Below are positions 8,777-32,248 of a stretch of 64,000 nucleotides of DNA, piece after piece. Position 1 is the stretch's first letter. Each line of letters starts with the position of its first letter. The position numbers and the translations under genes were made by a program. Under the pieces are notes generated by a model that was not told the DNA's origin, ran no database searches, and was given only the letters and a program-made list of their open reading frames with translations. The stretch is from Bacteroidaceae bacterium (GTDB taxonomy: Bacteria > Bacteroidota > Bacteroidia > Bacteroidales > Bacteroidaceae), in contig JAFXVZ010000037.1 in NCBI GenBank assembly GCA_017534535.1, positions 163,599-227,598 of the forward strand, written 5' to 3'.

Positions 8777-8777
8777 T

Positions 8778-8798: not shown

Positions 8799-8815
8799 GT
8801 ACATTTATTTCAGAT

Positions 8816-9550
8816 ATGCAACGATACTTCATATATTTAGCGTATGATGGCACTCAGTATCATGGGTGGCAGATACAACCCAACGGCGATAGTGTACAGC
8901 AAAGGCTTATGGATGCCCTGCAAACCCTGTTGCGTAGAGAGGTGGTTGAAGTAACGGGAGCTGGCCGTACCGATGCCGGTGTGCATGCCAAGCTAATGGT
9001 GGCTCACTTTGACAATGAGACCCATCTGGATTGTTCCAAGCTCACTGATAAGCTGAATCGTCTGCTACCACCAGACATTAGTATATATAAGGTAGAGCCA
9101 GTCGATGCCGAGATGCATGCACGCTTCAGTGCCAAATCAAGAAGATATGAGTATTATGTTACCACTGCCAAAAGTCCGTTCATGCGCCAATATCGTTATC
9201 GCTTGCACAAAGCCCCTGATTTCCAACTGATGAACCAAGCTGCTCAGCTCTTGTTGGAACAAGATGACTTCACCAGTTTCAGCAAGCTCCATACCGATGT
9301 CAAAACCAACATCTGCCATGTTACCCGTGCCGAGTGGAGCCAGGTGGATGAAGATACGTGGGTGTTCAACATCCAAGCTGACCGCTTTCTTCGCAATATG
9401 GTCCGTGCCGTTGTAGGTACCCTCTTGGAGGTTGGCTTTGGCAAACTCACCCTCGATGGCTTCCGTGGTGTCATCCGGCAAAAGGATCGTTGCTCAGCCG
9501 GTATGTCTGTCCCAGCCCAAGGCCTCTTTCTGGCGGATATTCAGTACTAA
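8816..9550 (+). CDS. truA: tRNA pseudouridine synthase A
   Basis: Isomerises uridines 38-40 in the anticodon arm of tRNAs. The 244 residues include [10 protein letters not shown] near the start and [10 protein letters not shown] with the catalytic Asp. ATG 8816 is preferred over an upstream in-frame TTG at 8783 because the family begins at [11 protein letters not shown] and the TTG lies inside the likely -7 promoter element. The end overlaps the convergent hemolysin III gene by 4 bp. Confidence 0.93.
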
Positions 9551-13555: not shown

Positions 13556-13699
13556 TTCAATGAATAATGAATAATGAACAATGAATAATGAATAATTGTC
13601 AATTGTCAATTGTCAATCGTCAATGGTCAATGGTCAATGGTCAATGGTCAATTGTCAATCGTCAACGGTCAACGTTCAACGATCAACGATCAACGATCA
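13556..13699. repeat. Long two-family heptamer array
   Basis: About 35 bp of AATAATG-type units lead into about 105 bp of GTCAATT/GTCAATC/GTCAATG/GTCAACG/ATCAACG units. The right end supplies the TGA stop of the HU gene (13697-13699 on the minus strand). It is the longest uninterrupted heptamer array in the window. Confidence 0.9.
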
Positions 13700-14272
13700 A
13701 ATATCCAAGTCATCACCACCGCCGCCATTGTCACCGCCGCCGCCGGTATTGCCACCTGTGTTACCACCCGTGCCGCTGCCACTACCAGAGCCAGAGCCGG
13801 AAGCTGGACGAGGAGGGATAGAGATATCCACCGTGGTCTCACCAGCCTTGATGGCCTTCAGCAGAGCCGCCTTCTCACGCAGGGTAGGAACCAGGTTGTA
13901 CTCGGCATCGTCCGCCAGGTTGCGGAATAATGCACCCGGGCTCCACTTCACCTTGACCTTGCTAATCTGAGTGGCAGGATTGTACTTGTCGGCATCCGCC
14001 ACACCCTTGCCCTTCAAGGTAATGGAGAAGTCGCCCAACTCACCCAGACTCACCTTGTAGCCTGCCAGGAGCAACTCACGGAGGCAATCCACTGCCAGGG
14101 TCAGGATGCCCTGCACGTCACTACGCCCATACACGCTGCCATGATCGGCAATGTGCTTGGCAAACTCCATCAGGTCGATGGTCTTCACGGTCTGAGCCGT
14201 ACCATAGGTGAGCTTCACACTGGTCTCGTCGCCCACCTTCGCATAACGCTTTACCAAACTGTAATTAATCAT
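13697..14272 (-). CDS. HU family histone-like DNA-binding protein with Gly-rich tail
   Basis: A 191-residue HU-like protein of the Bacteroidales histone-like family. The HU fold covers about residues 1-130 (GRSDVQGILTLAVDCLRELLLAGYKVSLGELGDFSI). A tail of about 35 residues is rich in Gly, Ser, Thr and Asp (SGSGSGSGTGGNTGG). It probably bends or coats DNA in this accessory locus. The stop codon lies in a heptamer array. It sits upstream of the smalltalk and amidase genes on the same strand. Confidence 0.88.
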   Translation of the reverse strand: MINYSLVKRYAKVGDETSVKLTYGTAQTVKTIDLMEFAKHIADHGSVYGRSDVQGILTLAVDCLRELLLAGYKVSLGELGDFSITLKGKGVADADKYNPATQISKVKVKWSPGALFRNLADDAEYNLVPTLREKAALLKAIKAGETTVDISIPPRPASGSGSGSGSGTGGNTGGNTGGGGDNGGGGDDLDI

Positions 14273-14280
14273 GTTTTTAA

Positions 14281-14312
14281 GTTTAAAGGTTAATGTTTAA
14301 AGTTTAAAGTTC
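14281..14312. repeat. GTTTAAA heptamer array in the HU leader
   Basis: Units GTTTAAA, GGTTAAT, GTTTAAA, GTTTAAA, GTTCGCA follow head to tail with 7-bp spacing. They lie in the presumed 5' leader of the HU gene. The base sequence differs from the GTCAATN family but the period is the same. Confidence 0.6.
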
Positions 14313-14344
14313 GCAATCGGTCTTCCGGACGACTGATTACATGG

Positions 14345-14352
14345 CAAAGGTA
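14345..14352 (-). promoter_or_regulatory. Promoter -7 element for the HU-smalltalk-amidase unit
   Basis: TACCTTTG on the minus strand fits TAnnTTTG. It lies about 73 nt before the HU ATG, with the GTTTAAA array and a GTC(TT)CCGGA-centred inverted repeat inside the leader. Confidence 0.5.
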
Positions 14353-14384
14353 CTACATGATAGAACCGGCATTATGAATTGCTG

Positions 14385-14398
14385 TGACATTGATGTAT
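14385..14398. promoter_or_regulatory. Shared 14-bp motif, copy 1 (possible operator)
   Basis: TGACATTGATGTAT occurs here, upstream of the DUF4248 gene and between the divergent HU and DUF4248 promoters. It recurs exactly at 17828-17841 upstream of the small regulator-like gene. Flanking CATTGA/TCAATG gives partial dyad symmetry. Confidence 0.45.
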
Positions 14399-14459
14399 AT
14401 AGAATGATATTCAATGACTTTCTATGACTTTTATCCTTGTTTTTCTGATAAAAAAGCAC

Positions 14460-14467
14460 TATATTTG
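14460..14467 (+). promoter_or_regulatory. Promoter -7 element for DUF4248
   Basis: TATATTTG matches TAnnTTTG and lies 23 bp before the ATG at 14490. A CTTG at 14436-14439 stands near the -33 position. Confidence 0.6.
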
Positions 14468-14489
14468 CATATCATTAAACACTAAGGAA

Positions 14490-14699
14490 ATGAAGATAAA
14501 GGCATACAGCAAGAGTGAGCTGGCACGTGCATACGCACCAGACATCGACATCAGGTCGGCTTTGAACCGACTGAGTTATTGGATTCGTTATAACAAGAAA
14601 CTCTCAGAGGAGCTTCATCTCGATGGCTACAACCGCTATCAGAAAGTGTTTACGGTGCGGCAGGTGGAAATCATCTTCCACTACTTAGGGGAGCCGTAA
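14490..14699 (+). CDS. DUF4248 domain protein
   Basis: A 69-residue small protein beginning MKIKAYSKSELARAYAPDID and ending with a helix-rich VRQVEIIFHYLGEP. The DUF4248 family is found almost only in Bacteroidales cassettes with HU, smalltalk and amidase genes. The SKSELARAYAPD segment resembles a winged-helix or MerR-like recognition region. ATG 14490 fits the family start and the promoter; a longer reading from 14424 is unlikely. A strong terminator follows directly. Confidence 0.78.
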   Translation: MKIKAYSKSELARAYAPDIDIRSALNRLSYWIRYNKKLSEELHLDGYNRYQKVFTVRQVEIIFHYLGEP

Positions 14700-14706
14700 A
14701 GAACAT

Positions 14707-14737
14707 GGGCGAGACATTACCAATGTCTCGCCCTTTT
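14707..14737 (+). terminator. Terminator after DUF4248
   Basis: A 12-bp perfect stem (GGGCGAGACATT / AATGTCTCGCCC) with a 3-nt loop is followed by TTTT. It lies 7 nt past the DUF4248 stop. Confidence 0.8.
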
Positions 14738-14781
14738 CATTACTAATCTCTCGGTCCTCACATTACCAATCTCTCGGTTAG
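14715..14781. repeat. Three imperfect direct repeats (CATTACCAATCTCTCGG)
   Basis: Copies begin at 14715, 14738 and 14761, a regular 23-bp spacing. The first is part of the terminator stem and the last contains the stop codon of the primase-helicase gene. They probably arose by local duplication. Confidence 0.55.
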
Positions 14782-16658
14782 GAGAATGGTATGGTTTGTT
14801 GGGCAGGAGTAGGGGGCGTGGCGGAAGGAGTAGGGGATTGGCTCTCTGGCTGATGGCTGGATGGCATGAGCAGCGTTCCGTCGGGTAGAATCCACGGATC
14901 TGCCTGCCACTGCACATTCATATAGCGGTCAATCACCTCACCGTTCTTGTCCATGCCTTTGCCCATCTCGCATGGGTTGAAGCGGCCATTGATGACATCG
15001 TAATGGAACAGGCAGTATCCACGCCTGCCCAAGTGCTTGAAGCGTACCTTATCTACAAACACGGTCGTTACCCCTGCCTCGTCGTTACGGTCCACAATCA
15101 GGCAAATGTCTGCCTTATTGCCAAAGTCGGCAGAACCGTTGATGTCGTTCATCTCCACACGCCTCTGCTTGCCATCGGTGGTGTTGCGGTTCACCTTTCG
15201 GGGATGTGCCACCAGCAGTACCATCACGTTGGTCTGCTGGGCAAAGCGTATCAGGCGGTTCAGCATGGAGGAAATGTACTGTAGCTCCGTCTGCCCGTCA
15301 GAAAGCCTTTGCTCGATGCGGTTGAACGGGTCGATGACCAACAGCTTCACATCCTTGCGTTCCACCAGCATCTGTGCCGTTCCCAAGATTGTGTCCAGCT
15401 CATAACGGTCTTCCTTGGGCAGGATGTGGAAGACATTCTGCCCCATCCATTGCTTCACGGCTGCATACATATTGTCGGTCATGCCCACCGATGGCTCAAA
15501 GCGATAGCCGGTAATCTTCTCCGACAACTTGCGCAAATGCAAGGCAATAGGCACGTTCTCTGGCGAGAAATACGCCACCTTCCAGCCGTGCATTAGGTTC
15601 AGGCGCACCGCTATCTCATCCACCAGCTCACTCTTGCCCTCTCCGGGACGGCCAGACATAATCATCAGCCTTCCAGGCTCAAAGCTCACTAACTCATCAA
15701 AGCCACTCAGTCCTATCTTCAAGCCGTGGCGGATGCGGTTATGAAATACATCCAGCATGTCTTGCTCCAGATCGTGGGCAGTATAGACATTCTCCATCAG
15801 GGGATATACAGCGCGCTCAATGCGACCAATCACACCCGTTCTACCATGCGTGAGCAGCTCCTCATTGGCATCCTTGCAATCCTTGTCCCAGTGTACGATG
15901 CGGCATTTGTCTGCACCCAGGCGCTTCACTAAGGCATCACGCAACTGGCATCCCACCTTGTCGTTGTCAATGGCAAGGATGAAGCCCTTCTTATCCTTGA
16001 AGTGTGTATCCCAGAACTCATCTATCCAGCGCACGTTGGCATTACCCCCTGTAGGCACGCTTACTACACCCTTGAAACCGCATTGATGCAGGGTGAGGGC
16101 ATCTATCTCGCCCTCCGTGATGGCACAGATGCTCTTGTTCTTCAGCGAGTCAATGTTGTAGGGGATGATCCTGCCTCCCTTGAAGAACATGAACCGTTTG
16201 TCAATGGAGCGATACTTGATGTTCACCAGTTCGCCATCCAGGAAGTAGTTGAAGGCGATGACTTGCTCCATTTTATCGCATTCCGGCATCTTCACCCATG
16301 GCTCCGTCACCTTCATTGCCTTCAGCGTTTCCAATGATAGTTGGCGGTTGTTTGCCAGGTAGTCCAGTGCATCCGAGGGGGCATTGATGAACTCGGCATG
16401 CCAGGCAGGCTTGGCATATTTGGGTTGCTGCTGTTCCTTGTCAGCCTTCTCAGCTACTGCGTTGATGCCATATACATGGCCTTTTGCCCCACAACGATGG
16501 CAATAGTATGTCCCTTTGTTGATGTTAACTGAAAGACATTTCCTTTTACTGTTCTTTTCATGTTTCCCCCTGCAGAAAGGGCAGGCTGCATATACCTCTC
16601 CTTTTTTGCTCGCTTTGACGTTCCCTGTGATACCGAGCGCATTCAAATCTATAGTCAT
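14778..16658 (-). CDS. Toprim primase / DnaB-type helicase fusion (T7 gp4-like)
   Basis: A 626-residue replication protein. It has an N-terminal CHC2-type zinc finger (C26, C29, C53, C56) and a TOPRIM domain with ITEGEIDAL (about 183) and LAIDND (about 230). The RecA/DnaB helicase core shows MSGRPGEGKSE (about 333), LLVIDPFNR and VLLVAHPRK. The architecture is that of phage and plasmid primase-helicases such as T7 gp4. It ends 34 nt into the region after DUF4373, so both are probably one operon. It suggests the locus derives from a phage, satellite or similar replicon. Confidence 0.88.
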   Translation of the reverse strand: MTIDLNALGITGNVKASKKGEVYAACPFCRGKHEKNSKRKCLSVNINKGTYYCHRCGAKGHVYGINAVAEKADKEQQQPKYAKPAWHAEFINAPSDALDYLANNRQLSLETLKAMKVTEPWVKMPECDKMEQVIAFNYFLDGELVNIKYRSIDKRFMFFKGGRIIPYNIDSLKNKSICAITEGEIDALTLHQCGFKGVVSVPTGGNANVRWIDEFWDTHFKDKKGFILAIDNDKVGCQLRDALVKRLGADKCRIVHWDKDCKDANEELLTHGRTGVIGRIERAVYPLMENVYTAHDLEQDMLDVFHNRIRHGLKIGLSGFDELVSFEPGRLMIMSGRPGEGKSELVDEIAVRLNLMHGWKVAYFSPENVPIALHLRKLSEKITGYRFEPSVGMTDNMYAAVKQWMGQNVFHILPKEDRYELDTILGTAQMLVERKDVKLLVIDPFNRIEQRLSDGQTELQYISSMLNRLIRFAQQTNVMVLLVAHPRKVNRNTTDGKQRRVEMNDINGSADFGNKADICLIVDRNDEAGVTTVFVDKVRFKHLGRRGYCLFHYDVINGRFNPCEMGKGMDKNGEVIDRYMNVQWQADPWILPDGTLLMPSSHQPESQSPTPSATPPTPAQQTIPFS

Positions 16659-16691
16659 TATATCATAAAGTTATAATTTAACAAAAAAGGA

Positions 16692-17672
16692 TTATAGTTC
16701 TGTCCAACAAAGACTACCTGCATCCCAAACGGCAGTTGCAGAAGGACGTGGAGGTGCCCAGTCGGGTATAGGCTTGCCATCGGCATACCTCTTGCCACCC
16801 CTATATTCCTCATAGCTGTTCGTACCTGGGAAAGAAGGGGCAGGTTCCACTGTTTTCACATTCCTTTCCTTCTCCTTCAGCTTGGCAAGCAGCTTCTTCC
16901 CACTGGCATGATACTTGTTCACGAAGTTGGCGAAATAATAATGTGCGTTCTGGTCGCTGCGGATTTCGTCGGCTTTATCCAGGACTATGATATGGTGGAT
17001 GAACTCTACCACGGCCTCCTCCCAATGACGGTCCAGCAGGGTGGAATAGCCTGAGTGCAGACAGGTAACCTGCCTCCACATGCAATAGAGCGGATTAAAC
17101 AATGCCAGCACGTGGATGCACCAAGGCTTACATGCCAGTTCGCCCAAGGCTGTCTTTACCTGTGGGTGCTCTTTCAACAGGGCAACAACCGTTGGATTGA
17201 TATCCCCTGTTTGTCCGCTCTGCTTCTCGCTTACGTGCGTCATGCACGTAATATTTATATTATCTGTTCTATTCTCGCCCGCCCGCACGTTATAATAGGA
17301 GGAATTGGGCGTTTCGTTGGACGCGCGTTGGACATGCGTTTGCTCCTGAGGGAACTTGCCCGTCCTCAAGCCGTGCAGCGTATGCGCACTCATTTCGCCT
17401 ATGCGCACGGGGTGATGCCTGACGTATCCTCCCTCGTCCGTTTCGAACAGGTAATAGTTGTCAATCACTTGCAGGATGTAGTTGCTGTTGAGACGGCGAC
17501 TGCACATGTCTTTTACCAGCCGCTGCTTCATAACGGCACCTTCCTCGCAGGCTGTTAGCCTCTCACTGATGAGCCAGTAGATGCCGTATCCCTTTGGTCC
17601 CATTTCTGTAATCAACATTTGCATCCGGGGGTCGCTGGAGGTGTTACTCCAATGCTTTTGCCATAATGACAT
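16692..17672 (-). CDS. DUF4373 (Lin1244/Lin1753) domain protein
   Basis: A 326-residue protein starting MSLWQKHWSNTSSDPRMQML. The N-terminal about 100 residues show the DUF4373 pattern (MGPKGYGIYWLISERL), a winged-helix-like domain often found in phage replisome-organiser or DnaD-like proteins. The rest is a helical middle and a low-complexity tail ending DWAPPRPSATAVWDAGSLCWTEL. It lies just upstream of the primase-helicase and may load it; that role is inferred from the neighbour. ATG 17672 is used because upstream codons to 17876 are not family-like. Confidence 0.78.
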   Translation of the reverse strand: MSLWQKHWSNTSSDPRMQMLITEMGPKGYGIYWLISERLTACEEGAVMKQRLVKDMCSRRLNSNYILQVIDNYYLFETDEGGYVRHHPVRIGEMSAHTLHGLRTGKFPQEQTHVQRASNETPNSSYYNVRAGENRTDNINITCMTHVSEKQSGQTGDINPTVVALLKEHPQVKTALGELACKPWCIHVLALFNPLYCMWRQVTCLHSGYSTLLDRHWEEAVVEFIHHIIVLDKADEIRSDQNAHYYFANFVNKYHASGKKLLAKLKEKERNVKTVEPAPSFPGTNSYEEYRGGKRYADGKPIPDWAPPRPSATAVWDAGSLCWTEL

Positions 17673-17752
17673 AATGTACTGTTTTTTAATGTTAATAATA
17701 ATTTTATTTAATAGTGGCAAGCATCGAAATATCATCTCTTTGAGAGCCGATA

Positions 17753-17760
17753 CAAAGATA
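17753..17760 (-). promoter_or_regulatory. Promoter -7 element for DUF4373-primase operon
   Basis: TATCTTTG on the minus strand lies about 80 nt before the DUF4373 ATG. No clear -33 TTTG was found at the expected distance. Confidence 0.5.
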
Positions 17761-17826
17761 CGAAAAACGCCTGACGGCATAGTGCATACAGTGTGCATTT
17801 TCTGTCTTTCCGTATGAAAATATTTT

Positions 17827-17854
17827 TTGACATTGATGTATTTTTCACTATAAT
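17827..17854 (+). promoter_or_regulatory. Sigma70-like TTGACA-N16-TATAAT with embedded 14-bp motif
   Basis: TTGACA at 17827-17832 and TATAAT at 17849-17854 with a 16-bp spacer give a near-perfect E. coli-type promoter, unusual in Bacteroidetes. It lies 46 bp before the ATG at 17900. The motif TGACATTGATGTAT (17828-17841) overlaps the -35 box, so a binding protein would block it. Confidence 0.5.
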
Positions 17855-17899
17855 ATACGCGCGCAATAGTGCGCAATCAATCATTTAAAAATTGTAATT

Positions 17900-18199: not shown

Positions 18200-18590
18200 T
18201 GTGTTGTCGGGGTGGGGTGGGAAGGGAAAATCATTATTTTCCTTGAAGGGTTGTTATTATGATTTAGGGTACTTTTGCCTTTTGCCAAGTCAGTTGAGCA
18301 ATAGAAACACATTTTGGTGCTTTGCTGATGGCATGAAAATGAGGCAAAAAGTTCCTTAGTGCAAAACGTATTATTATGCGTTATGTGCGTATTTTAGTAT
18401 TCTCAATCCATCCATTTCCCCTCTCCACCATTTTTTGCCTTTGGATTTTGAAATTTGAAATACTTTGTATATCTTTGCCAATAATATGTGGTTAATTACC
18501 TTAGTGGGCACTTGCGAATAGAGAGGGTTCCCAAAGAGCAGGGTGGTTATATTTTTTTTGTGGGTTTATTATATTAGTTTTAGCTATTGT
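18200..18590. other. Intergenic region before the defence island
   Basis: No gene was recognised in these 391 bp. It holds a small GGAAAAT/ATTTTCC hairpin at 18225-18242 and a strong promoter at 18447-18477. The presumed transcript leader is about 105 nt and includes T-rich sequence. The left end of the island is probably in this gap. Confidence 0.5.
18447..18477 (+). promoter_or_regulatory. Promoter of the BREX-like operon
   Basis: TTTG at 18447-18450 and TATCTTTG at 18470-18477 are separated by exactly 19 nt, the optimal Bacteroidetes arrangement. It is the only clear promoter before 32465, so it probably drives the whole operon. Confidence 0.75.
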
Positions 18591-18965
18591 ATGGCAGGTG
18601 TAGAATTGACAGAAATAAAGGACTTTATAGGGCAGAATACTCGAAATAAGATTGTGATTTGTCGCGAAGTCATTGGTGGACTACATTTCATCAATGTGGG
18701 GTACGATTTGTCTTTGCTTTTATCTAAGAATAGCTACAACTACGAGGAGACTGTCAGTGTCATTTTTGATAAAACCCTTTATAATGAAACCATCGGTAAC
18801 TATTTGGCTCTTACTAATTTTGCCATCTTAATTGAACCAGAATTAAAAGTAAACATTCACAATATCCTTGATGCTTATTCCAGAAACCAATGCTTAATTA
18901 TTCAGTCGGACATTGATTTTCACCAATGGATTAACCTTGATGGATTGACGTATAAACAACTATAA
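18591..18965 (+). CDS. Small protein in the BrxF position, no Walker A motif
   Basis: A 124-residue cytosolic protein, first in the operon, 6 nt before the brxC-like gene. The C-terminal half (FAILIEPELKVNIHNILDAY then SRNQCLII) follows the pattern of BREX-3 BrxF ('..E.LF.P.L..D.L..L...SRN..LV'). No GxxxxGK[ST] loop is seen where BrxF has one; the matching region reads CREVIGGLHFINVG. It may be a degenerate or nucleotide-independent BrxF relative. ATG 18591 is preferred to an upstream TTG/GTG reading because the upstream codons are T-rich and hydrophobic. Confidence 0.5.
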   Translation: MAGVELTEIKDFIGQNTRNKIVICREVIGGLHFINVGYDLSLLLSKNSYNYEETVSVIFDKTLYNETIGNYLALTNFAILIEPELKVNIHNILDAYSRNQCLIIQSDIDFHQWINLDGLTYKQL

Positions 18966-18971
18966 AGCATT

Positions 18972-21900
18972 ATGAAGTATAGTGAGTTAATTCAATTTGA
19001 ACCACTGAATGAAGTCGTAAAGTTTAATCGACTCATTGACGACGCATATCGTGAGAACCTGGTGAAAACCTATGTTTTCTCCAAGGCATACGAAGATACG
19101 ATTATCCCAGAGGTCTGCAAGAACCTCGATTATACAGCCATGTACGATACCTTTGGCTTGCAGATTGTGGGTACTTATGGTACTGGTAAATCGCACTTGA
19201 TGTCACTTATTTCATTGGTGGCTGAGAATGCAGAGTACTTGCCATTAGTACAGAACGATAAAGCTGTACAGGTGCTAAAGAATATAGCAGGCAAATATCG
19301 TATCATCCGTTTTGAGCTGGGCAGTGCTGACGAGTTGTGGAACCTCATCTGCCATCAGATAGACCTGAAGTTCCAGGAATGGGGTATCCATTATTCCATT
19401 GCAGCAGACAATAAGCCAGACATGTATAAGGATAAGTTGATGCGCATGATGGCCCAGTTTGAAGCAGCTTTCCCTGACAAGGGACTGATGATTGTCATCG
19501 ATGAGATGCTGTCTTACTTGAAAGGGCGTAGTGGTACAGACAAGCTGAATCGTGACTTGGCTGTTATTCAGGCATTGGGCGAGATGAGCGACCACTCCAA
19601 GTTCCGTATGGTGTTTGGCGTTCAGGAACTGATTTATACAGCCGCAGAGTTCCAGTTTGCCGCCAAGATGCTGAACCAAGTCAGCCAGCGCTATCGTCAG
19701 ATAGAGATTACCAAACAGGATGTGCAGTTTGTTACTGAGCAGCGCATCCTCAAGAAGAGTGATGCCCAGAAGCAGGCCATCAGAAAGCATCTTTCCAAGT
19801 TTACAGAGTTCTTTACTGACCTGCATGCCAATTTAGAGAGTTATGTGGATTTGTTCCCTGTCAACCCATCCTTCTTTGAGAACTTCCAGCAGATCAAGAT
19901 AGGCAAGAGCCAGCGCGAAATTTTGAAGACACTTTCGCAGAAGTTTGAGAAGATTGCCAATCAACAAGTGCCAGAAGACAATCCAGGCCTTATCTGCTAT
20001 GATAGTTATTGGGAAGATTTGAAGGCTGCGCAGATGCAGACCTACGCTGACGTTCGTCGTGTGACAGAGATTATGCAGACCATCCATCAGAAGATTGATG
20101 ATAATTTCACGGGCATTCGTGCTAAGAAAGCGCCGTTAGCTCACAGAATTGCTAATGCCTGTGCAGTTAAGTTGTTACAAGATTCGTTAGAAAAGACCAA
20201 TGGTACCAATGTCGAGAATCTGGTAGATGACCTGTGCTATCTGGATACCGGCTGTATCAGTCGTGAGTTCCTGATTGACACCATGAACGTAACAGCATCT
20301 CAGATTGTAACTGCTACTGTTGGTCAGTATTTCGAGAAGAACGATACCAACCAGGAATACCATATCAGAGTGGAAGGTGGTGTGAACTACGAGCAGAAAA
20401 TCAAGGACTTTGCCAACACCATGAGTGCTGACAATAAAGACAGTCACTTCTTCGACTTCTTGGCAGAGTACCTTCCTATAGATGCAGAGCAATACAGGCG
20501 TGAGTTTAAGATTTATCAACACAGGATTGATTGGAATACTCATAAGGTGATGCTAGATGGCTATATATTTATGGGCAACCCTGCTGAGCGTAGTACTACT
20601 CATCCTGAGCAGAATTTCTACATCTATTTTATGCCCATCTTCAACAAGGAGAATATCAAGCATGGCGACGAGGCAGATAGCGTATTCTTCCACATGGAGC
20701 ATTTCAGCGATGAGTTTAAGCAACTGATAGAACTCTATGCTGCCAGCGAAGCACTCTATGCAAGTGTTGACAGTTCGCAGAAACCTTTCTATCAGCAATT
20801 CAAGAAGCAATATGAAGACAAATTGAAACCTGTCTTTAACCGTGATTTTGTTCAATGCACTGAAGTGTTTTATCAAGGAGAAAAACAAACTATCACACCT
20901 CAGATGATGACTGGTGGTTCAAAGGAGCAAGTTATTAGTAGCATTGCTTCTTTACTACTGGAAGATTACTTCTGCGGAAAACTCCCTAATTATCCTAAAT
21001 TTACTCTTTTGAAAGCATCGCTCACCAGCATGAATCGTGCTGATAATATAAAACGTGCCAGAATGAAGATAGCCAATCCTACGCAATCCAACCATGAAGG
21101 TGAGGCCATCCTTGCAGGTCTTGGCTTACTACAGGAGAACCAATTAAGTGTAGAAGGCAGTATCTATGCACTTAGCATCAAAAAGAAACTGGAGGATAAA
21201 GGTCAAGGCCAAGTCTTGAATCGCGACGAAATACTGTATCGTTTCTACAAAGACTGGGAAAACGATTGGCGTAGCTTTGATTATAATATCGAATCAGACT
21301 TTGAATTTTTAGCTTTAGCAACTTTGGTTGCTGTAGGTGAAATTGAAATAGACTATCCTGGAGGAAAAAATATAAATGCAGCTAACCTTCGCGAGATTGT
21401 AGATTTACCTTTCGATAGCTTCTACAGTTTCTCACATGTACGTAGGCCAAAGGGCATTAGCCTCTCTGCGGTGAGAGAATTGTTCTTGGGCGTAACAGGT
21501 AAGGATATGACAAGCCAGTTGCAGAATCCTGATATCTATCTGGAGTTGGTGAGTCAAGCCAAGGCTATTGCTGCTAACGCTGTGAAATGTAGTCACGATT
21601 TAGGCAATGGCATTTCTTTAGGTGATGTAGAAATTATAGGAGGTAGCGAGGCTACAGTCATTAAGAACCAACTTACATCTTTAGCAGGATTGTGTGACAG
21701 GATTCCATCATACGCCTCATATCCCAAGATGCGCAACCTTCCTCAAGATTGGACAGCTGAGGTGCTCCGTAATCAGTTCAAGGCAAAAGAGCTGATAACT
21801 CGCATCAAGCAAGCTATGAAATTCAGAGATGAATTCTTGTCACGTGTCAATTATCTGAATGAGGCCATGGAGTTCATGCTCAGCGAAGAGATGAAGAAAA

Positions 21901-22652
21901 AGACAGAAACTTCAATGGAAAAGATGGGTGAGATTGTGGCTGACATGAATAATGAAATGGCGATTACAGCCTACAAGACAGAGCTTGACACCATCATTTG
22001 TGACTATGCAAAATGGTATTTTGCTGAGTACCAGCGCATGCACATTACAGAGTTTGAGGATACCGATAAGCGACGCATCATGAACAATAACAACAAGAAG
22101 GTGTGCGATGCTGTCTGTGGTGCTGACTATGGAAAAGGATACTTTTCAGTAGCTAGTCAATATACTGAGTGGCTAAATAAGATGAACAGTTTGACAGTAG
22201 TTCCTTCGTATATCACACCAGAATATATTATGAAGACTCCCAACGTTGGTTTTAATCCCAAAGATTTTCAGGGCAAGCATTTACCCAAATTGTCTGAACT
22301 GAGAGAAGAATTAGAAGGTATAGCTATCAATGTAGATGATACGCTTCATCAGATTTTAAGCGATGAATCTTTACTAATCAATAAAGATATCTTGGAAGAT
22401 AGTCTGCAAGGGCTTCTCTCACGGTATACCAGCGGAGGCGAGGAACTTTCACCTGCCAATGCAGGCAGATTGGTAGAGATTGTAGTGAAACTGCATGAAG
22501 GTATTCAGCGTATAACCATCTCAGAAGATGACATACGCAAAGTACTGAATCGCCCTATGACGCCAGACGATGCTGTAAAGGCATTCCGCAAATACATCAA
22601 TTCTCTGACTGTTGGTGGTCAGGAAGATAACATCAGAATCATCTTAAAATAA
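18972..22652 (+). CDS. brxC: BrxC/DUF6079-like P-loop ATPase of a BREX-type system
   Basis: A 1226-residue AAA-like ATPase. Walker A is GTYGTGKS (67-74) inside IVGTYGTGKSHLMSLI, typical of BrxC/PglY and DUF6079 proteins. The likely Walker B is LMIVIDEMLSYL (about 173-184). A long helical C-terminal part follows. BrxC proteins are the largest conserved BREX component and act with PglX and PglZ in phage exclusion and host methylation. It is translationally packed, 6 nt before the methyltransferase gene. The BREX-3-like gene order supports the call; the exact subfamily needs an HMM search. Confidence 0.78.
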   Translation: MKYSELIQFEPLNEVVKFNRLIDDAYRENLVKTYVFSKAYEDTIIPEVCKNLDYTAMYDTFGLQIVGTYGTGKSHLMSLISLVAENAEYLPLVQNDKAVQVLKNIAGKYRIIRFELGSADELWNLICHQIDLKFQEWGIHYSIAADNKPDMYKDKLMRMMAQFEAAFPDKGLMIVIDEMLSYLKGRSGTDKLNRDLAVIQALGEMSDHSKFRMVFGVQELIYTAAEFQFAAKMLNQVSQRYRQIEITKQDVQFVTEQRILKKSDAQKQAIRKHLSKFTEFFTDLHANLESYVDLFPVNPSFFENFQQIKIGKSQREILKTLSQKFEKIANQQVPEDNPGLICYDSYWEDLKAAQMQTYADVRRVTEIMQTIHQKIDDNFTGIRAKKAPLAHRIANACAVKLLQDSLEKTNGTNVENLVDDLCYLDTGCISREFLIDTMNVTASQIVTATVGQYFEKNDTNQEYHIRVEGGVNYEQKIKDFANTMSADNKDSHFFDFLAEYLPIDAEQYRREFKIYQHRIDWNTHKVMLDGYIFMGNPAERSTTHPEQNFYIYFMPIFNKENIKHGDEADSVFFHMEHFSDEFKQLIELYAASEALYASVDSSQKPFYQQFKKQYEDKLKPVFNRDFVQCTEVFYQGEKQTITPQMMTGGSKEQVISSIASLLLEDYFCGKLPNYPKFTLLKASLTSMNRADNIKRARMKIANPTQSNHEGEAILAGLGLLQENQLSVEGSIYALSIKKKLEDKGQGQVLNRDEILYRFYKDWENDWRSFDYNIESDFEFLALATLVAVGEIEIDYPGGKNINAANLREIVDLPFDSFYSFSHVRRPKGISLSAVRELFLGVTGKDMTSQLQNPDIYLELVSQAKAIAANAVKCSHDLGNGISLGDVEIIGGSEATVIKNQLTSLAGLCDRIPSYASYPKMRNLPQDWTAEVLRNQFKAKELITRIKQAMKFRDEFLSRVNYLNEAMEFMLSEEMKKKTETSMEKMGEIVADMNNEMAITAYKTELDTIICDYAKWYFAEYQRMHITEFEDTDKRRIMNNNNKKVCDAVCGADYGKGYFSVASQYTEWLNKMNSLTVVPSYITPEYIMKTPNVGFNPKDFQGKHLPKLSELREELEGIAINVDDTLHQILSDESLLINKDILEDSLQGLLSRYTSGGEELSPANAGRLVEIVVKLHEGIQRITISEDDIRKVLNRPMTPDDAVKAFRKYINSLTVGGQEDNIRIILK

Positions 22653-22658
22653 GATAGT

Positions 22659-25370
22659 ATGGCAATAGATAATGAGAACGTTCTCTTCTCTGTAGAGGAG
22701 ATGAACAACATGATAAAGGACTCGTTGCAATTCCAGCAGGATGGCCCAGTAACTTGCTTAGGTCGTGAGTTCCCCAATGACCAGGCACGTAGAGAATACT
22801 TTCGTGAGGAACTGCGTAAGAAACTGCCTGAGTTGCGACAGATAGAAGGTTTTCCCATTGGAGAAGATGATGACATTATTAATCTCTCAGATCCACCATA
22901 TTATACAGCATGCCCAAATCCTTGGCTTAATGACTTCATTGCTGAGTGGGAGAAGGAAAAAGTACAATTAGAGGTCGAAGGAAAACGAAAGAAAAACTTC
23001 GAGGTGAAAGAGCCATATGCCAGTGATGTGAGTGAAGGAAAAAACAATCCTGTATATACTGCTCACCCATATCATACGAAGGTGCCTCATCCTGCCATTA
23101 TGCGATACATTTTGCATTATACGCAACCAGGAGATATTATATTTGATGGCTTTGCTGGTACAGGTATGACTGGCGTCGCTGCTGCATCTTGCGTTAATAT
23201 GCATGATGAAATATCTTCAAGAATAAATAGCGAGTGGCAAAACTTATTTGGGAAAACCCCAAAATGGGGCCTTCGTCATGCTGTATGTGGTGATCTGTCA
23301 CCCTATGCTTCTAATATTTCATACTTCTACAATTTTCCTATTAATTCTTCTTTGCTAAAAAATGAATTGTCTCGTATAGGAAAGGAAATGGAAGATGAAT
23401 ATGGATGGATGTATAGAACTACAAATGCAAAAGGTGAACCAAAAGGTAAAATCAATTTTGTATTGTGGAGTGATGTCGTAGTATGTCCTCATTGTGGAAA
23501 AGAATATGTATATTGGGATCATGGTGTTGAAATGATTAACCTGAGGGTGACGTCATTGGAATCCTATCCATGTCCTCATTGTGGTGCAAGTCAATCAAGA
23601 AAAACAGCGAAATGTGCTCTTGAGACATATTATGACGAAGGTGTTGGAAAAGTTCTTAAAAGAGTAAAGCAAGTACCTGTTATTATAGTTGGCAAATGTG
23701 GTAAAGAAAAGATTCAAAGGGGGCCTAATGAATATGATTTGGATCTTTTGAAAAGAATAGAGGATACTAAAATTGAATCTTGGTATCCAATAGAAGAATT
23801 ACCTGAAGGATTAAAAACGAGAGATCCTAAAGCTCGTGAGGTTTATTATGCCCACCAGTTCTACACTAAGCGAACTCTTATTGCACTTTCTGCCTTCTAT
23901 GAGAAGATAACATCCTCTCCTATGTCAATACCTTTAAGATTTATGTTTACATCAATGTTGAATCTTATAAGTAAGAGAAATAGAGTACAGGCGAAAAATC
24001 CATATAGCCGCGGGCAAGGTGTTCTCAATTTAACATTAGTACTTCCTCCTTTCCCTACTGAAGCTTCTCTACTGGAAATGATTGATATGAGACTAAATTC
24101 TATTATAAAAGCGAAAGAATCTATTCCGAATTATCATACTAATGCTCAATATGTCGCTTCTGCTGACAATATTACAATCAGTGACGACAGCATTGACTAT
24201 ATTTTCACAGATCCTCCGTTTGGGGCTAATATTAACTACTCTGAATTAAATTCCATGCCAGAACCTTGGTTGCGATTGTTAACAAATAATTCTCATGAGG
24301 CTATTGTGAATGAAACTCAAGGTAAAAATGAATTTACATATAGGGATACTATGACAAGATGCTTTAGTGAATACTATCGCATTCTTAAACCAGGGAAATG
24401 GATGACTGTAGAATTTAGCAACACAAGTGCCTCAGTATGGAATAGTATTCAATACTCTCTACAAAAGGCAGGCTTCATTATTGCGAATGTTGCTGCGCTT
24501 GACAAACAGCAAGGTGGTATGAATGCAAACATGAATACAACTTCTGTAAAACAAGATCTAGCTATTACATGTTATAAGCCATCTGTTCATGCCAAAAAAT
24601 ATATAGATAATGAATCTGATAAAGGTATTTGGGAATTTATAGAAGATCACCTTGAACATCTTGCCACATACATCATAAGAAATGGGAAAATGACAAGTAT
24701 TCCAGAACGAGATCAAAGAATACTTTACGATCGACTTATATCTTATTATGTACAGCATAGTAAGGCAGTACCTATAGATTCAATTTCGTTCCAGAAAGGA
24801 TTGCGTGAACGATTTGTGGAGCGTGATGGTATGTTCTTTACGGCACCCCAAGCTGCAGAATATGAAGAAAAACGAGCTAAAATTAGCGAGTTCGTTCCTA
24901 TGGGCATCATTGTTAGTGATGAGTCGAATGGTATACAATGGCTAAAGAACCAGCTGCGCAATAATCCAAAGACCTATCAGGAGATTCAGCCAGAATGGAT
25001 GCAGGCCATCAATGGTATCAGGAAAGGTGATATATTGCCAGAACTAAAGCAACTATTGGAAGAGAATTTCATTGAAATAGAAGGTGGAAAATGGCGTCTG
25101 CCAAATATGCAGGACGATGTAGATAAGGATGCTATGCGTACCAAGTCGTTGCTGCGTGAATTCAAAATCTATGTCGAGGCAGCCAGCAAACCTAAGGCCA
25201 AAATTAAAGAGGCTCGTGTAGAGGCTCTGCGTGCAGGCTTCAAGCAGTGCTATATTGATAAAGACTTCCAGACCATCGTAATGGTGGGTGACAAGATTCC
25301 TCAGAATCTGCGCGATGAGGATGAGGTGCTGTTGCAGTTCTACGAGATTGCATTGAACAAAGTCGGATAG
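22659..25370 (+). CDS. pglX: PglX-type adenine/cytosine-N DNA methyltransferase with zinc ribbon
   Basis: A 903-residue class I DNA amino-methyltransferase. Motif I is FDGFAGTGMTG (about 163-172, SAM binding) and motif IV is TDPPF (about 516-520, catalytic). Between them are two CPHCG knuckles (about 275 and 304) forming a zinc ribbon. An N-terminal DPPYYTACPNPW block (from about 78) is seen in related defence methylases. The order motif I - Zn ribbon - DPPF fits BREX-3 PglXI. It would mark host DNA at a non-palindromic site. The central 1.6 kb looks AT-richer than both ends, suggesting exchange of the specificity region. Confidence 0.82.
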   Translation: MAIDNENVLFSVEEMNNMIKDSLQFQQDGPVTCLGREFPNDQARREYFREELRKKLPELRQIEGFPIGEDDDIINLSDPPYYTACPNPWLNDFIAEWEKEKVQLEVEGKRKKNFEVKEPYASDVSEGKNNPVYTAHPYHTKVPHPAIMRYILHYTQPGDIIFDGFAGTGMTGVAAASCVNMHDEISSRINSEWQNLFGKTPKWGLRHAVCGDLSPYASNISYFYNFPINSSLLKNELSRIGKEMEDEYGWMYRTTNAKGEPKGKINFVLWSDVVVCPHCGKEYVYWDHGVEMINLRVTSLESYPCPHCGASQSRKTAKCALETYYDEGVGKVLKRVKQVPVIIVGKCGKEKIQRGPNEYDLDLLKRIEDTKIESWYPIEELPEGLKTRDPKAREVYYAHQFYTKRTLIALSAFYEKITSSPMSIPLRFMFTSMLNLISKRNRVQAKNPYSRGQGVLNLTLVLPPFPTEASLLEMIDMRLNSIIKAKESIPNYHTNAQYVASADNITISDDSIDYIFTDPPFGANINYSELNSMPEPWLRLLTNNSHEAIVNETQGKNEFTYRDTMTRCFSEYYRILKPGKWMTVEFSNTSASVWNSIQYSLQKAGFIIANVAALDKQQGGMNANMNTTSVKQDLAITCYKPSVHAKKYIDNESDKGIWEFIEDHLEHLATYIIRNGKMTSIPERDQRILYDRLISYYVQHSKAVPIDSISFQKGLRERFVERDGMFFTAPQAAEYEEKRAKISEFVPMGIIVSDESNGIQWLKNQLRNNPKTYQEIQPEWMQAINGIRKGDILPELKQLLEENFIEIEGGKWRLPNMQDDVDKDAMRTKSLLREFKIYVEAASKPKAKIKEARVEALRAGFKQCYIDKDFQTIVMVGDKIPQNLRDEDEVLLQFYEIALNKVG

Positions 25371-25371
25371 T

Positions 25372-26832
25372 ATGGCAAGCAAACTGATTCAGCAAGTAGC
25401 AAAGCGGATAACGGTGGACTACTGCCGTTTGACGTTCGTCAGAAATACAGATGGATTTCTGAACAATGTCGAAGTGTGTACTTTGCTGAATCAGGAATGC
25501 CGTATTGAGGTTGTAAGAGGCTCACAATTGCAACTACGCCTCCATTATGAATTGGAATATAAGAGCAGACCTGAAGAAAGGTTCGTCTATGTATGCCAGC
25601 AAACAGATACGCTATTATCAGATATGCTGAAAGAAGGAAAAGTACTGGACTTTTCCATCAGTGACCTGTTCCCTCTCTTTGCAGATAAATCTTTGATTCG
25701 CAGGCAACCATTACAAGTATTAGAATGGCTGTATGACGAAATAGGAATACACCGTGTTGGTCTTGCAGAAGGGAAGATGATGGTTGATAATCTAATAAAT
25801 AGATTTAACAATCAACGCAATCATTCTGTTTCTCATTTACGTGAACGTCTCCATCAGATTGAGGTAAATTGGGTTAATAGCCAAAAAACGATAGAATTTG
25901 TTTCTAAAATAATGGTGGATGCCATTATTGCTGGTGTTGTAGATGAAATGGCTGATGATTTTGATGCTATCAACGACCTATTCCAGGAATGGCTCAATGA
26001 ACACTACTTTGGAATGCTGCAAAGCAATCCATTGTTGAGTGCCAAGAGTGTGAACAAAATTTTACCTCATCTTGCAGCCAATTTTCAACATCAAGATAAA
26101 GTAGCCCTGATGGTTGTAGATGGTTTTGCTTATTGGCAGTATGTTGTACTAAAGAGGTATCTGGATAGTTTAGACATCAAGACTCAGGATAGTACCATCG
26201 TATCGTGGCTTCCAAGTATCACCATGCTATCACGCCAGGCTATATTCAGAGGAAATAACCCAGAGATGGATTACAAACAGAGTCCTGAAAATGAGCGAAA
26301 GCTATGGCGTAGCTATTGGCAAAGTCAAGGTGTTGGCCAGTATGAATCGCAGTATATTGGCGATGACGATGAGTTTGCCATTAATGAGGGTGTGAAGCGA
26401 TTGGCTGTGGTTACAGTAGAAATGGATAAAAAAATGCATTCGTCATACGACTATCGCGACTTATTATCACTAACTGAAAACTGGTGCCCAAGGATCGTAG
26501 CGAAAATCAAGACCATTGTGGAGGCAGGCTACACTCTGTATCTGACCACAGATCATGGTAGTGTGCTATCGAAAGGATGGAGAGCATTGACACAGGTAGA
26601 AAAAGTGTTCCTCTACAAAGATGGCAGTCGAGGTAAACGACACCTCATATATAATTACATAGAAGAGTATCAGCGTTTTACAAAAGAGAATGGAGAATTG
26701 GGACTGTTAGCTCACAACAACTGGCTATGTATGAGAAATAGCATGTGCTTTGCCAAAAATAACGAAAGAATGATAACTCATGGAGGTTCCCACTTTGAAG
26801 AAGTGGTGATACCATTTATAAAGATTGGTTAG
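25372..26832 (+). CDS. pglZ: PglZ-domain protein
   Basis: A 486-residue PglZ protein of the alkaline-phosphatase superfamily. The PglZ core shows VALMVVDGFAYWQY (about 243), LTTDHGSVL (about 391) and THGGSHFEEVVIPF (about 468), the metal-binding Asp/His positions. The N-terminal about 230 residues are helical and family-specific. PglZ is the defining component of BREX and Pgl systems; some members are nucleases or phosphatases. It begins 1 nt after the methyltransferase gene. It is short for a BREX PglZ (often 650-900 residues). Confidence 0.83.
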   Translation: MASKLIQQVAKRITVDYCRLTFVRNTDGFLNNVEVCTLLNQECRIEVVRGSQLQLRLHYELEYKSRPEERFVYVCQQTDTLLSDMLKEGKVLDFSISDLFPLFADKSLIRRQPLQVLEWLYDEIGIHRVGLAEGKMMVDNLINRFNNQRNHSVSHLRERLHQIEVNWVNSQKTIEFVSKIMVDAIIAGVVDEMADDFDAINDLFQEWLNEHYFGMLQSNPLLSAKSVNKILPHLAANFQHQDKVALMVVDGFAYWQYVVLKRYLDSLDIKTQDSTIVSWLPSITMLSRQAIFRGNNPEMDYKQSPENERKLWRSYWQSQGVGQYESQYIGDDDEFAINEGVKRLAVVTVEMDKKMHSSYDYRDLLSLTENWCPRIVAKIKTIVEAGYTLYLTTDHGSVLSKGWRALTQVEKVFLYKDGSRGKRHLIYNYIEEYQRFTKENGELGLLAHNNWLCMRNSMCFAKNNERMITHGGSHFEEVVIPFIKIG

Positions 26833-26836
26833 AGAA

Positions 26837-27445
26837 ATGGAAAGAATCAGTATAGGAATAGAGAAACGTATATCACTCAATGTGTTGGAACTGGCATTAA
26901 GAGCAACTCTTGATGGTACAGCATCATCAGCCTACTTTTATGAGTTGGCAAATGCTGAGGGTATAGGCAAGAATAGAGCTAAGAAAACTGTGGCTGTCAT
27001 AAACAGAATGACCCTAAAGAATAAGCTCTTGCCTTATATTATGGATAACAAAGAGACGATTAATAACATGATGCGAAATAGGTATGACCGTCCTTTGTTG
27101 TATGTAGCCATGATGTGTGGTGCATACACCATCTTCTACGATACATTAGCGATATTAGGAAAATACTTCCATGTGCAGGAAGAGGTAAGCAGAGATTTGC
27201 TACTGAAGAAGCTCAGCGAGAAGTACGGCAATAATCGTATGCTCGATGTAGCTTTTGACTGCGTGATGCCCATGCTAGTGGAAGCTGGGTTCATAGAGAG
27301 GCCCGTTCCAGGCATCTATGCTATGCGCAAACAAGAGAAGTACACAGAGGAGGCTAAGAAAATCTATCTGCAATCCTGCATGTTGAATAATCACAATTAT
27401 TCAGCTGATATGAATAGGAATCCTTATTTTGAATTTATTAATTAA
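26837..27445 (+). CDS. Small helical/winged-helix protein in the BrxA position
   Basis: A 202-residue cytosolic protein 4 nt after pglZ. Helix-rich segments such as RPLLYVAMMCGAYTIFYDTL and VSRDLLLKKLSEKYGNNRML lead to VMPMLVEAGFI, a pattern like the C-terminal winged helix of BrxA/DUF1819 or related small BREX proteins. Position and size fit BrxA, but identity is not certain. ATG 26837 is used; the frame extends to a TTG at 26825 that would overlap pglZ. Confidence 0.5.
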   Translation: MERISIGIEKRISLNVLELALRATLDGTASSAYFYELANAEGIGKNRAKKTVAVINRMTLKNKLLPYIMDNKETINNMMRNRYDRPLLYVAMMCGAYTIFYDTLAILGKYFHVQEEVSRDLLLKKLSEKYGNNRMLDVAFDCVMPMLVEAGFIERPVPGIYAMRKQEKYTEEAKKIYLQSCMLNNHNYSADMNRNPYFEFIN

Positions 27446-27458
27446 AACTACGAATATT

Positions 27459-30425
27459 ATGGAACAAAGATTCGAAACAATTGAAGAATTACAGGACTAC
27501 CTGGACTTCTTAGAAATGAAAGGTCGCAAAATCCCTCAGTGGGTCTTAAGCGAAAAAGAACGTCTGGAGCGTGAAAGTGCTATCAACGACGAGGAATATA
27601 TCTTCAGCACGATGAAGGCCAATAATCCTTTTATGACAGAGAAAAAGGAGAGTGTGATAAGAGAGATGACAGAGCGACTTCTTATTGATGGGCCAAAAGC
27701 TACCCAACCCTGCTTGTTGCTGGGAAAGGTTCAGTGTGGTAAAACAGATACTTTTGAGAATATAATAGCTTTATGTTTTGACAAAGGAATCGATATCGCT
27801 ATTGTGATGACCAAGGGAACAAAGACTCTGACAGATCAAACTAGAGAACGTCTTGAATATGATTTTCGTTTTTTTAGAGACAATGGGACATATGGTCAGA
27901 AAGCTATAGTTGATTTATATGATATATTACCGTTGTTCCACCGAGGTGGACTAAGCATCAGCCAACTTCAGGATCCAATACGAAAATTCATTATTGTGGT
28001 AAAAAAAGAAAGCACAAACGTACAGTACCTAAATGATTTGTTTAGAGACAATGAATTGATGCGCCAAAAGCGTGTGCTCGTGTGTGATGATGAAGCCGAC
28101 TTTTCAAGTCATACTTTCAAAAAGTCAAAAGGAGAGGTAGATTTGCTTGAAATACCGAAATTGATTGAAGAACTGATAAAACTCCCTAATTATTGTCGCT
28201 ATCTTCAGATAACAGCTACCCCTTATTCTCTTTTCCTTCAACCAGATGGTACTGTCAAAATACGAGGAGGGAAAGAAGCTTCTCAATGGTTGCCAAGATA
28301 CACAGGCCTCGTTCCTATTCATGATCGTTATATTGGTGGTAAGGAGTATTTTGAATTGAGCGAAGATGAAGATTCTATGTATAGCTGCCTCTATCATCCT
28401 GTTAGTAAAGAGTGTAATTCTATCCTGTCTGTTCGAAATCCGTGGTATCAGGAACAGGCTGCACACAGAGAAAATCTACATTCTCTAAGTCTTGCTATTG
28501 TAGGCTATCTGTTCTCTACAGCTATTAGGTCAATTCAAGTACGTAAAACAGAGAATAAAAAGTATAAGTCAAGTTGTCTTATTCATTGTGAGACAGCCAA
28601 AGCCCATCACAAGTGGCAAGAAGACCTCATCGTTAATATTATTGAGGAAATCAAACAAGCATTCTTGGAAAAGGGTAATTCTGATTTACACATCCTTGAT
28701 ATGGAGAGTGAGGTGTATGAAAGCTTGAGAAATAGTAATGAACTTGGACGAAAGGGAGGCTTGATTAAGTCAAAGTTCCCATCATTCCCTGAAGTGGAAG
28801 CAGAAGCGAAGCACATTCTTGAATATAATGATTATGTAGTTAAAGTGGTAAATAGTGAGGAACCAGTAGCTACAATGCTTAATAAGAGAGGACAACTACG
28901 GCTAGATAATATAATGAATTTCTTTATCGGAGGAAATATTCTTGATCGTGGTATAACAATAGATAATATGTTATGTTTCTTCTATGGTCGTGACCCTGGT
29001 AAATTCCAGATGGATACGGTACTTCAACATGCACGAATGTATGGCGCTCGTGATAAAGAAGACATGGCATGTACCCGTTTCTTCACTACAGAAGCTATTT
29101 ATGACGTACTTAAAACCATCAACGAGATTGATGCAATGATGTATGATTATCTAAAAGCGCATCAAACTTCTGCTCAGAGTAATGACTTTACTAGTATGGT
29201 CATTGGGTATGATAAGCGTATTAAGGCAACATCACAGAATAAGTATTTACCATCAAATACCACTGTTATTAGACCAAAGAAAACTATATTCCCAATGGCT
29301 TTCCAAACTGGAACGGAAGATGAAATTGGAAATATTGTCAAGGAAATCGATGCACTTATAACTGCATGTCCAGGATATGCTAAACGTACAGGAGATAATC
29401 CATTTTTTATGATTGATTATGAAACAGCAGTGAAAATTATAAAACTCACAAGTTTGACATTCCGTTTTAGTGAGGAATGGGAGAATATGGACTATTTGTG
29501 GGATGACAATGAGATACGAACTACACTTGACCATTGTATTTTTGGCTCTGATGGTATGATTTACTGTTTGGTAAGAACTAATCGTAATATGAGCCGTGAA
29601 CGTGATAAGCAGACTGACGGTAAAAGGTGGAGTGATGCTCCATACGATGGTCATAATGACTTGAAACCTGCACGTATCATTGAGCAAGATCGTCCAGTAT
29701 TAATGTTACTTCGCCAGAATGGTAAGAGAGAGCAAGGATGGAGAGATACACCATTTTACTGGCCAGTATTAGTAGTACAGGAAGATATTAAACAGGCTAT
29801 CTTTACCATCAATGCAGACAAAAAGTTACAAAAAAGAAAAGAAAGGAAGCAGTTCAAACTGGATAGCTTCAATAAGTACCCCAAAGAGGAGATACTTCAA
29901 TTGACTGTTCATTCAGGTCCTTTCTTTGATTTTTTGCTCGGGAATAGAACAAATGAGTCACGTGTACTAAAACGTTCCAACTGCTCATTGTTTTTGGAAA
30001 AGGATGAGTATGGTAATTTGTTACTCAGTGATGATGAGCATATAGACCCGACAAAGTCCTATAACCTTTCCTCACTCAATGATGGTTATTTCCCATTCGT
30101 TTTGCGAAATTACAAATATCTGTATTTACGCAATTCTCAGGATTTTAGTGGCAGTCAAATGTTCATTGAATTGAAAAAGGATGAGCCTTGTACGTTATTC
30201 TATACCCAAGGGGAGCAGCAAGATATTATATATGATACAGCGAATGTGGGCACTGAATCGTTGAATTCAAATGTTTGTATATGGGGGATTGATTATAATT
30301 TTGAAAAGATATTGGAATATAAGCTGACTCCTGATGACGAAAAAGCACTTGAGGAATATAAGGATTTATTAGAGTCTCAGGAAGAACAATTTAATAATAA
30401 CGAAACTAATGATAGCAACGCTTGA
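27459..30425 (+). CDS. Z1-domain SF2 helicase-like protein
   Basis: A 988-residue protein of the Z1 family. Helicase motifs are visible: GKVQCGKT (about 89-96, Walker A), VCDDEADFSSH (about 208, DExD), ITATPYS (about 250), GGNILDRGITID (about 490) and QHARMYGARD (about 524, motif VI). The C-terminal about 400 residues are not recognised. Z1 proteins are known from defence islands beside MutL-like ATPases and methylases; their activity is poorly characterised. Here it stands where BREX-3 has BrxHII. ATG 27459 is chosen 13 nt after the previous stop. Codon use is more AT-rich than in the flanking core genes. Confidence 0.8.
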   Translation: MEQRFETIEELQDYLDFLEMKGRKIPQWVLSEKERLERESAINDEEYIFSTMKANNPFMTEKKESVIREMTERLLIDGPKATQPCLLLGKVQCGKTDTFENIIALCFDKGIDIAIVMTKGTKTLTDQTRERLEYDFRFFRDNGTYGQKAIVDLYDILPLFHRGGLSISQLQDPIRKFIIVVKKESTNVQYLNDLFRDNELMRQKRVLVCDDEADFSSHTFKKSKGEVDLLEIPKLIEELIKLPNYCRYLQITATPYSLFLQPDGTVKIRGGKEASQWLPRYTGLVPIHDRYIGGKEYFELSEDEDSMYSCLYHPVSKECNSILSVRNPWYQEQAAHRENLHSLSLAIVGYLFSTAIRSIQVRKTENKKYKSSCLIHCETAKAHHKWQEDLIVNIIEEIKQAFLEKGNSDLHILDMESEVYESLRNSNELGRKGGLIKSKFPSFPEVEAEAKHILEYNDYVVKVVNSEEPVATMLNKRGQLRLDNIMNFFIGGNILDRGITIDNMLCFFYGRDPGKFQMDTVLQHARMYGARDKEDMACTRFFTTEAIYDVLKTINEIDAMMYDYLKAHQTSAQSNDFTSMVIGYDKRIKATSQNKYLPSNTTVIRPKKTIFPMAFQTGTEDEIGNIVKEIDALITACPGYAKRTGDNPFFMIDYETAVKIIKLTSLTFRFSEEWENMDYLWDDNEIRTTLDHCIFGSDGMIYCLVRTNRNMSRERDKQTDGKRWSDAPYDGHNDLKPARIIEQDRPVLMLLRQNGKREQGWRDTPFYWPVLVVQEDIKQAIFTINADKKLQKRKERKQFKLDSFNKYPKEEILQLTVHSGPFFDFLLGNRTNESRVLKRSNCSLFLEKDEYGNLLLSDDEHIDPTKSYNLSSLNDGYFPFVLRNYKYLYLRNSQDFSGSQMFIELKKDEPCTLFYTQGEQQDIIYDTANVGTESLNSNVCIWGIDYNFEKILEYKLTPDDEKALEEYKDLLESQEEQFNNNETNDSNA

Positions 30426-31083
30426 TTACGTAAAAGATAAGTTTGAAGAGTTCAATAATATGTGTTTTGAAGGGAAGTTGAAACCACTTCCCTTCAAACT
30501 AAGTTCTGCAAGGTCTTTTTTGGGTCAAGTACGCTTCAGGAGAGATAAAAATCCTGATGGAACCTGGTATTTTTCAGATTTCATATTCATTGTTAGTAAT
30601 AAGATGGATATGGAAGAAAGAGAAATAGAAGATACCATCCTTCATGAGATGATTCATTATTACATCCTGTCTAATCAAATGCAAGATACGAGTCCTCATG
30701 GTGAGATATTTATTCGCATGATGAAAGATATCAATTATCGCTTTAATCGCAATATCACTGTTATTCATAAAACGACAAAAGAAGAACATGATAAGGATAC
30801 AGAAGTAAGGCAACATATCATCTGCGTTACAAGGATGCGAACTAACCAAAGAGGCATTACTGCAGTTACTAAAAGCCGATTGTTTCAGCTTTGGGAAGAA
30901 ATACCGAAAATACCCAACTTGGCAGAACACCATTGGTATGTTACTACTGATCCATACTTCAATCGCTTTCCCCGTGCTACGTCAGTAAAGATATATCCAA
31001 TACCTGTAGATGATTTGGAAGCACATCTTAAAGGCGCTAAAGAATTGGTTAGAGTAGGTAATTCTATTAAAGTGAAGAAATAA
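30409..31083 (+). CDS. SprT-like zinc metalloprotease
   Basis: A 224-residue protein overlapping the Z1 gene by 17 bp, so translation is probably coupled. The zinc motif is HEMIHYY (79-85) with a third ligand in SPHGE (His 97), as in SprT/SPRTN proteases. SPRTN cuts proteins cross-linked to DNA. The C-terminal part (YVTTDPYFNRFPRATSVKIY) may bind nucleic acid or partners. In this operon it could remove or activate a DNA-bound protein during defence; this is inference. No SprT zinc ribbon (CxxC) is visible. Confidence 0.78.
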   Translation: MIATLDYVKDKFEEFNNMCFEGKLKPLPFKLSSARSFLGQVRFRRDKNPDGTWYFSDFIFIVSNKMDMEEREIEDTILHEMIHYYILSNQMQDTSPHGEIFIRMMKDINYRFNRNITVIHKTTKEEHDKDTEVRQHIICVTRMRTNQRGITAVTKSRLFQLWEEIPKIPNLAEHHWYVTTDPYFNRFPRATSVKIYPIPVDDLEAHLKGAKELVRVGNSIKVKK

Positions 31084-31165
31084 TTTAATAATCTTTGGAT
31101 GCCTGTCCAACTATAATTCTAATAATGAAATAGAATGATGAAATTGCTAACAAGGCTAATTGATA

Positions 31166-32248
31166 ATGAAATACCCCAAGGAGTTCATATCACTAGTGAA
31201 TAGTTTGGCCAATGAAACAGACCAGGACCTACAATACATAGGTCAAGGTAACCCATGGGCAAAGATGCTCATTGTGGAAAAGGACAACCATATAGACACT
31301 TCTACCACACGTGGTGAGGGCTGTTATATGATGGAAGTGTTGAACAACGTAAAACAATGGCAGAAGAACATAGAAGAGAATGTCTGCTCTGATGATATAC
31401 CATCATGGATCGAATCTCCTATATCTATAGAGGCATATAATCCTCTATACCCATACAAAGGTTTGAAGAACTTTTTAGCGAAACGTGATAGCGAGGGAAG
31501 CTCTATAAACGGGGGTGTAAGCAGTAGTTGGGTGTCTTACCAGAAGTTGAGAAGTGCTATCAGTCCTGCTTCTGAATCAGACGTGATTGACTTCCATCAA
31601 ACGGCATTCCTAACGAGCCTTTGCAGTGTTAAATGTCCTAATCATGGCTATCCTGACGAGGTTAGAAAATCTGTTTCTGTAAGATGTAAGCAACTATTCT
31701 CTTTACCCTATTTTAGATCGTTTGATGTTATTTTGATGTCATGTGGCCGGATAGTTAAGGATTGCCACGTGAATGTTGAAGAGGTTTTTGACCAAAAGTT
31801 CATCGAGGAAATCAAGTATGGTAATGAATGGATTCGCTACTACGAGAAGGATGGTAAGTTGCTGATGCTTACTGGTACCATACAAAGGTGTTCAAAAGAG
31901 TTGATTGGTGTTATTGGCAAGAAGGCTAGGGAATACCTAATGAGACAACTCATGCCATATTTCGTTCATTATGATGGAACAGAGGATAGTATTAATAATG
32001 ATTCTCTGGCATGGTATGAATATCTGTGGTCTTGTTTACGTCTTATTGGGAAAGATTCTCAGTATGATTTCGAGGTTAACGATATGATAAATAATTATGG
32101 ATTTGAAGAGGATTGGTTGGATAGTTTTGAACTTCCAAGGACATTGATAGGACTGTTCTTCAACCGTTACTGCCATTGGTTGAATTACGCTGATAAGGAT
32201 GGTTTCAAGAGCTGGTTTGAGAAGTATCGTAAAGGAATAACCGAATGA
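31166..32248 (+). CDS. Unrecognised protein with uracil-DNA-glycosylase-like features
   Basis: A 360-residue soluble protein. The N-terminal two thirds show a UDG-superfamily-like order: GNPWAKMLIVEKD (strand 1 with acidic residue), FHQTAFLTSLC, FDVILMSCGRIVKD and KLLMLTGTIQRCSKELI (the position of the family's H/S loop). None of the key UDG residues is clearly conserved, so the fold call is tentative. A helical tail (from about 270) follows. It is 82 nt after the SprT gene and probably in the same transcript. ATG 31166 is preferred over TTG 31160. Confidence 0.35.
   Translation: MKYPKEFISLVNSLANETDQDLQYIGQGNPWAKMLIVEKDNHIDTSTTRGEGCYMMEVLNNVKQWQKNIEENVCSDDIPSWIESPISIEAYNPLYPYKGLKNFLAKRDSEGSSINGGVSSSWVSYQKLRSAISPASESDVIDFHQTAFLTSLCSVKCPNHGYPDEVRKSVSVRCKQLFSLPYFRSFDVILMSCGRIVKDCHVNVEEVFDQKFIEEIKYGNEWIRYYEKDGKLLMLTGTIQRCSKELIGVIGKKAREYLMRQLMPYFVHYDGTEDSINNDSLAWYEYLWSCLRLIGKDSQYDFEVNDMINNYGFEEDWLDSFELPRTLIGLFFNRYCHWLNYADKDGFKSWFEKYRKGITE

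Follow-up and report, generated by a model that had tools for sequence, protein, structure and literature searches.

Introduction

Among the described bacteriophage exclusion (BREX) systems, type 3 consists of brxF, brxC, pglXI, brxHII, pglZ and brxA, and its helicase BrxHII, which PMC12839542 reports for 77% of type-3 taxa, counts as a core component. Phage exclusion and N6-adenine marking of host DNA are further hallmarks of the type. We have analyzed a stretch of 64,000 nucleotides (nt) from contig JAFXVZ010000037.1 of a Bacteroidaceae bacterium, called the window below, whose numbering is used throughout. We will show that the operon at 18447..31083 is a BREX operon that lacks the usual BrxHII, and that its last two genes instead encode another DNA motor and a Spartan-like protease. 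The function of the operon, including any anti-phage role, we infer.

Results and Discussion

A preliminary description, made from the sequence without database searches, had proposed a seven-gene operon behind a consensus promoter, and this organization is confirmed (Table 1). The promoter is an exact copy of TTTG-N19-TAnnTTTG, which we take to be the Bacteroidetes consensus; two exact matches occur in the window, against 0.33 expected.

Table 1. Features of the operon (aa, amino acids; SF2, superfamily 2).
Feature	Coordinates	Strand	Evidence
Putative Bacteroidetes-type promoter	18447..18477	+	TTTG-N19-TAnnTTTG, 113 nt upstream of brxF
BrxF-like protein, 124 aa	18591..18965	+	PADLOC BrxF 3.4e-5
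BrxC / DUF6079 AAA+ ATPase, 1226 aa	18972..22652	+	PF19557 2.8e-230; PADLOC BrxC 3.3e-241
PglXI-type DNA methyltransferase, 903 aa, inserted zinc ribbon	22659..25370	+	PADLOC PglXI E=0, 1037 bits
Short PglZ, 486 aa	25372..26832	+	PF08665 4e-13; NCBIfam BREX_PglZ_3 5.5e-53
BrxA, 206 aa	26825..27445	+	PADLOC BrxA 8e-15
SF2 motor	27429..30425	+	PF10593 2.5e-23; PADLOC Helicase_II 1.6e-42
SprT/Spartan-like zinc metalloprotease, 224 aa, HEMIH + H97	30409..31083	+	PF10263 2.6e-12

The combination that marks BREX of any type, a PglZ-domain protein with a BrxC/PglY ATPase, is present, and the proteins BrxF-like, BrxC, PglXI, PglZ and BrxA, all five matched by PADLOC models, stand in type-3 order. In BrxC, residues G67, G70, T71, G72, K73 and S74 are invariant among five aligned sequences, while DGFAGTG, DPPF and four cysteines are invariant among nine for PglXI, a methyltransferase of the type-3 kind with its zinc ribbon in an insert. 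BrxA, a further type-3 trait, had no match in the Pfam search, and its likelier start is the ATG at 26837. The BrxF-like protein scores 16.8 bits with the NCBIfam BrxF model, below the cut-off of 50, and a homologue lies upstream of BrxC in 5/5 relatives. It has no Walker A motif, which would fit an inactive STAND-like BrxF; G-x4-GK[ST] is found in none of the 11 BrxF sequences, one of which (L069) does not include the N-terminal region and another (L029) is a frame with no clear start.

The PglZ protein is below the curated type-3 cut-off (NF033449, BREX_PglZ_3; 180 vs 250 bits), its best stretch covering 282-641 of the 642 profile positions. D250, T284, S287, D394, H395 and H470, which we take to be active-site residues, are invariant in five aligned sequences, and judging from this alignment the conserved active-site residues are present in the short PglZ. 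The BrxC and PglZ of the operon are closely related to those of the short-PglZ BREX-3 loci L066, L067 and L069, where the PglZ open reading frames (ORFs) encode 487, 486 and 519 aa, respectively; these loci come from members of the same family or at least the same phylum.

BrxHII, the type-3 helicase, was not found. The gap between pglX and pglZ is 1 nt. The window and the loci L027, L029 and L031 gave no BrxHII match at E<=1e-3, and the assembly gave none at E<=1e-20; as the assembly is 89% complete, a gene may have been missed, and the search did not extend to the genomes of the three relatives. In three relatives the available sequence extends to this end of the operon, and all three have the same arrangement of BREX genes, DNA motor and Spartan-like protease. 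Some limits apply: the clade is absent from the trees of PglX and BrxA and from one earlier tree of BrxC, and the lack of BrxHII is by itself nothing special. The proposal of a BREX variant in which a Z1 helicase and a protease replace BrxHII is supported in part.

In other loci, the place after pglX is occupied by additional genes, namely ORF6N and Fic genes (L027:16425-17906), a gene for a 456-aa Fic protein (L028:16347-17717) and one for a Schlafen/AlbA protein (L066:7353-9230). A TIR-like gene (L025:13694-14602; CAP12/PCTIR 2.3e-4, below cut-off) is located downstream of sprT in the L027-type locus, and a tyrosine integrase gene (8010-9206) upstream of the L031 operon. L020:423-14258, a BREX-like locus that is only distantly related, encodes a PglZ of 492 aa, a BrxC-like protein of 1396 aa, a Schlafen protein and an Mrr-nSTAND3 protein, and gave no BrxHII match.

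We now turn to the two terminal genes. Motifs I, II, III and VI of the SF2 motor are present in 4/4 BREX loci. The protease has HExxH and a third zinc-binding histidine, H79, E80, H83 and H97 being invariant among eight aligned sequences, and is apparently intact as far as its residues tell. It shares this SprT-like catalytic domain with SPRTN/Spartan and bacterial SprT; DNA-dependent proteolysis, also characteristic of SprT-like proteases, would be expected of a true member. Human SPRTN has a regulatory tail; the window protein, which sits in a defence operon, has no counterpart of it, and its C-terminal ~100 aa lie outside the assigned domain. A profile built from the eight sequences matches Spartan (6mdw, 3.1e-12). 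This match, together with the clearance of DNA-protein crosslinks by Spartan proteases (described in PMC7826251), would suit a caretaker rather than a weapon. Such a protease would limit self-damage by clearing BREX proteins, for example trapped PglZ or PglX, that have stalled on or become crosslinked to the host's own DNA; we consider this possible, if rather unlikely. Still more doubtful is a role in counter-counter-defence, with DNA-mimicking or DNA-binding phage inhibitors as substrates, or in activation of the system by cleavage of a BREX subunit. BREX is blocked by Ocr, OrbA and the like, as PMC12839542 states, and a DNA-binding protease would be a plausible answer to them, but no sequence feature points to such a role, to a cleavage site or to a target.

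Two further SprT genes adjoin cas genes. One, 54% identical to that of the window, belongs to a second genome from this order (L013:11830-17208), where it heads a cas operon of type I-C, ahead of Cas3 and then Cas5c, hinting at a defence-linked SprT branch. The other (L016:1533-6908; 30% identical, tblastn) adjoins cas9 and cas1 but has a shikimate kinase gene on its far side, and so may be a housekeeping SprT.

Around the operon, a 362-aa ORF (31160-32248), 76 nt downstream of sprT, has no Pfam or PADLOC match, and a search of related loci did not reveal it. On the minus strand beside the operon (13697-17876), HU-HIG, CHC2-Toprim-DnaB-like and weakly Lin1244-like proteins are suggestive of a mobile-element remnant. 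An ORF6N protein at 34090-34659 matches the PADLOC candidate family PDC-S05 (1.5e-47).

Comparison with Known Systems

The preliminary description knew of no subtype with this gene set, and we did not find one in the literature searched, which left out most subscription papers and bioRxiv. To our knowledge, the MZA system (MzaC) has other partners, without a BREX core. CglI and NgoAVII restriction (M, R and N proteins) involves no PglZ, BrxC or protease; its nuclease is a PLD protein and its methyltransferase is of the 5-methylcytosine type (PMC4267653). An ATP motor is also paired with a protease-like domain in BrxL of BREX types 1 and 4, which PMC12839542 describes as an MCM-like AAA+ protein with a fused Lon domain that lacks the catalytic dyad. 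In the present operon, by contrast, the SF2 motor and the apparently intact zinc protease are separate proteins.
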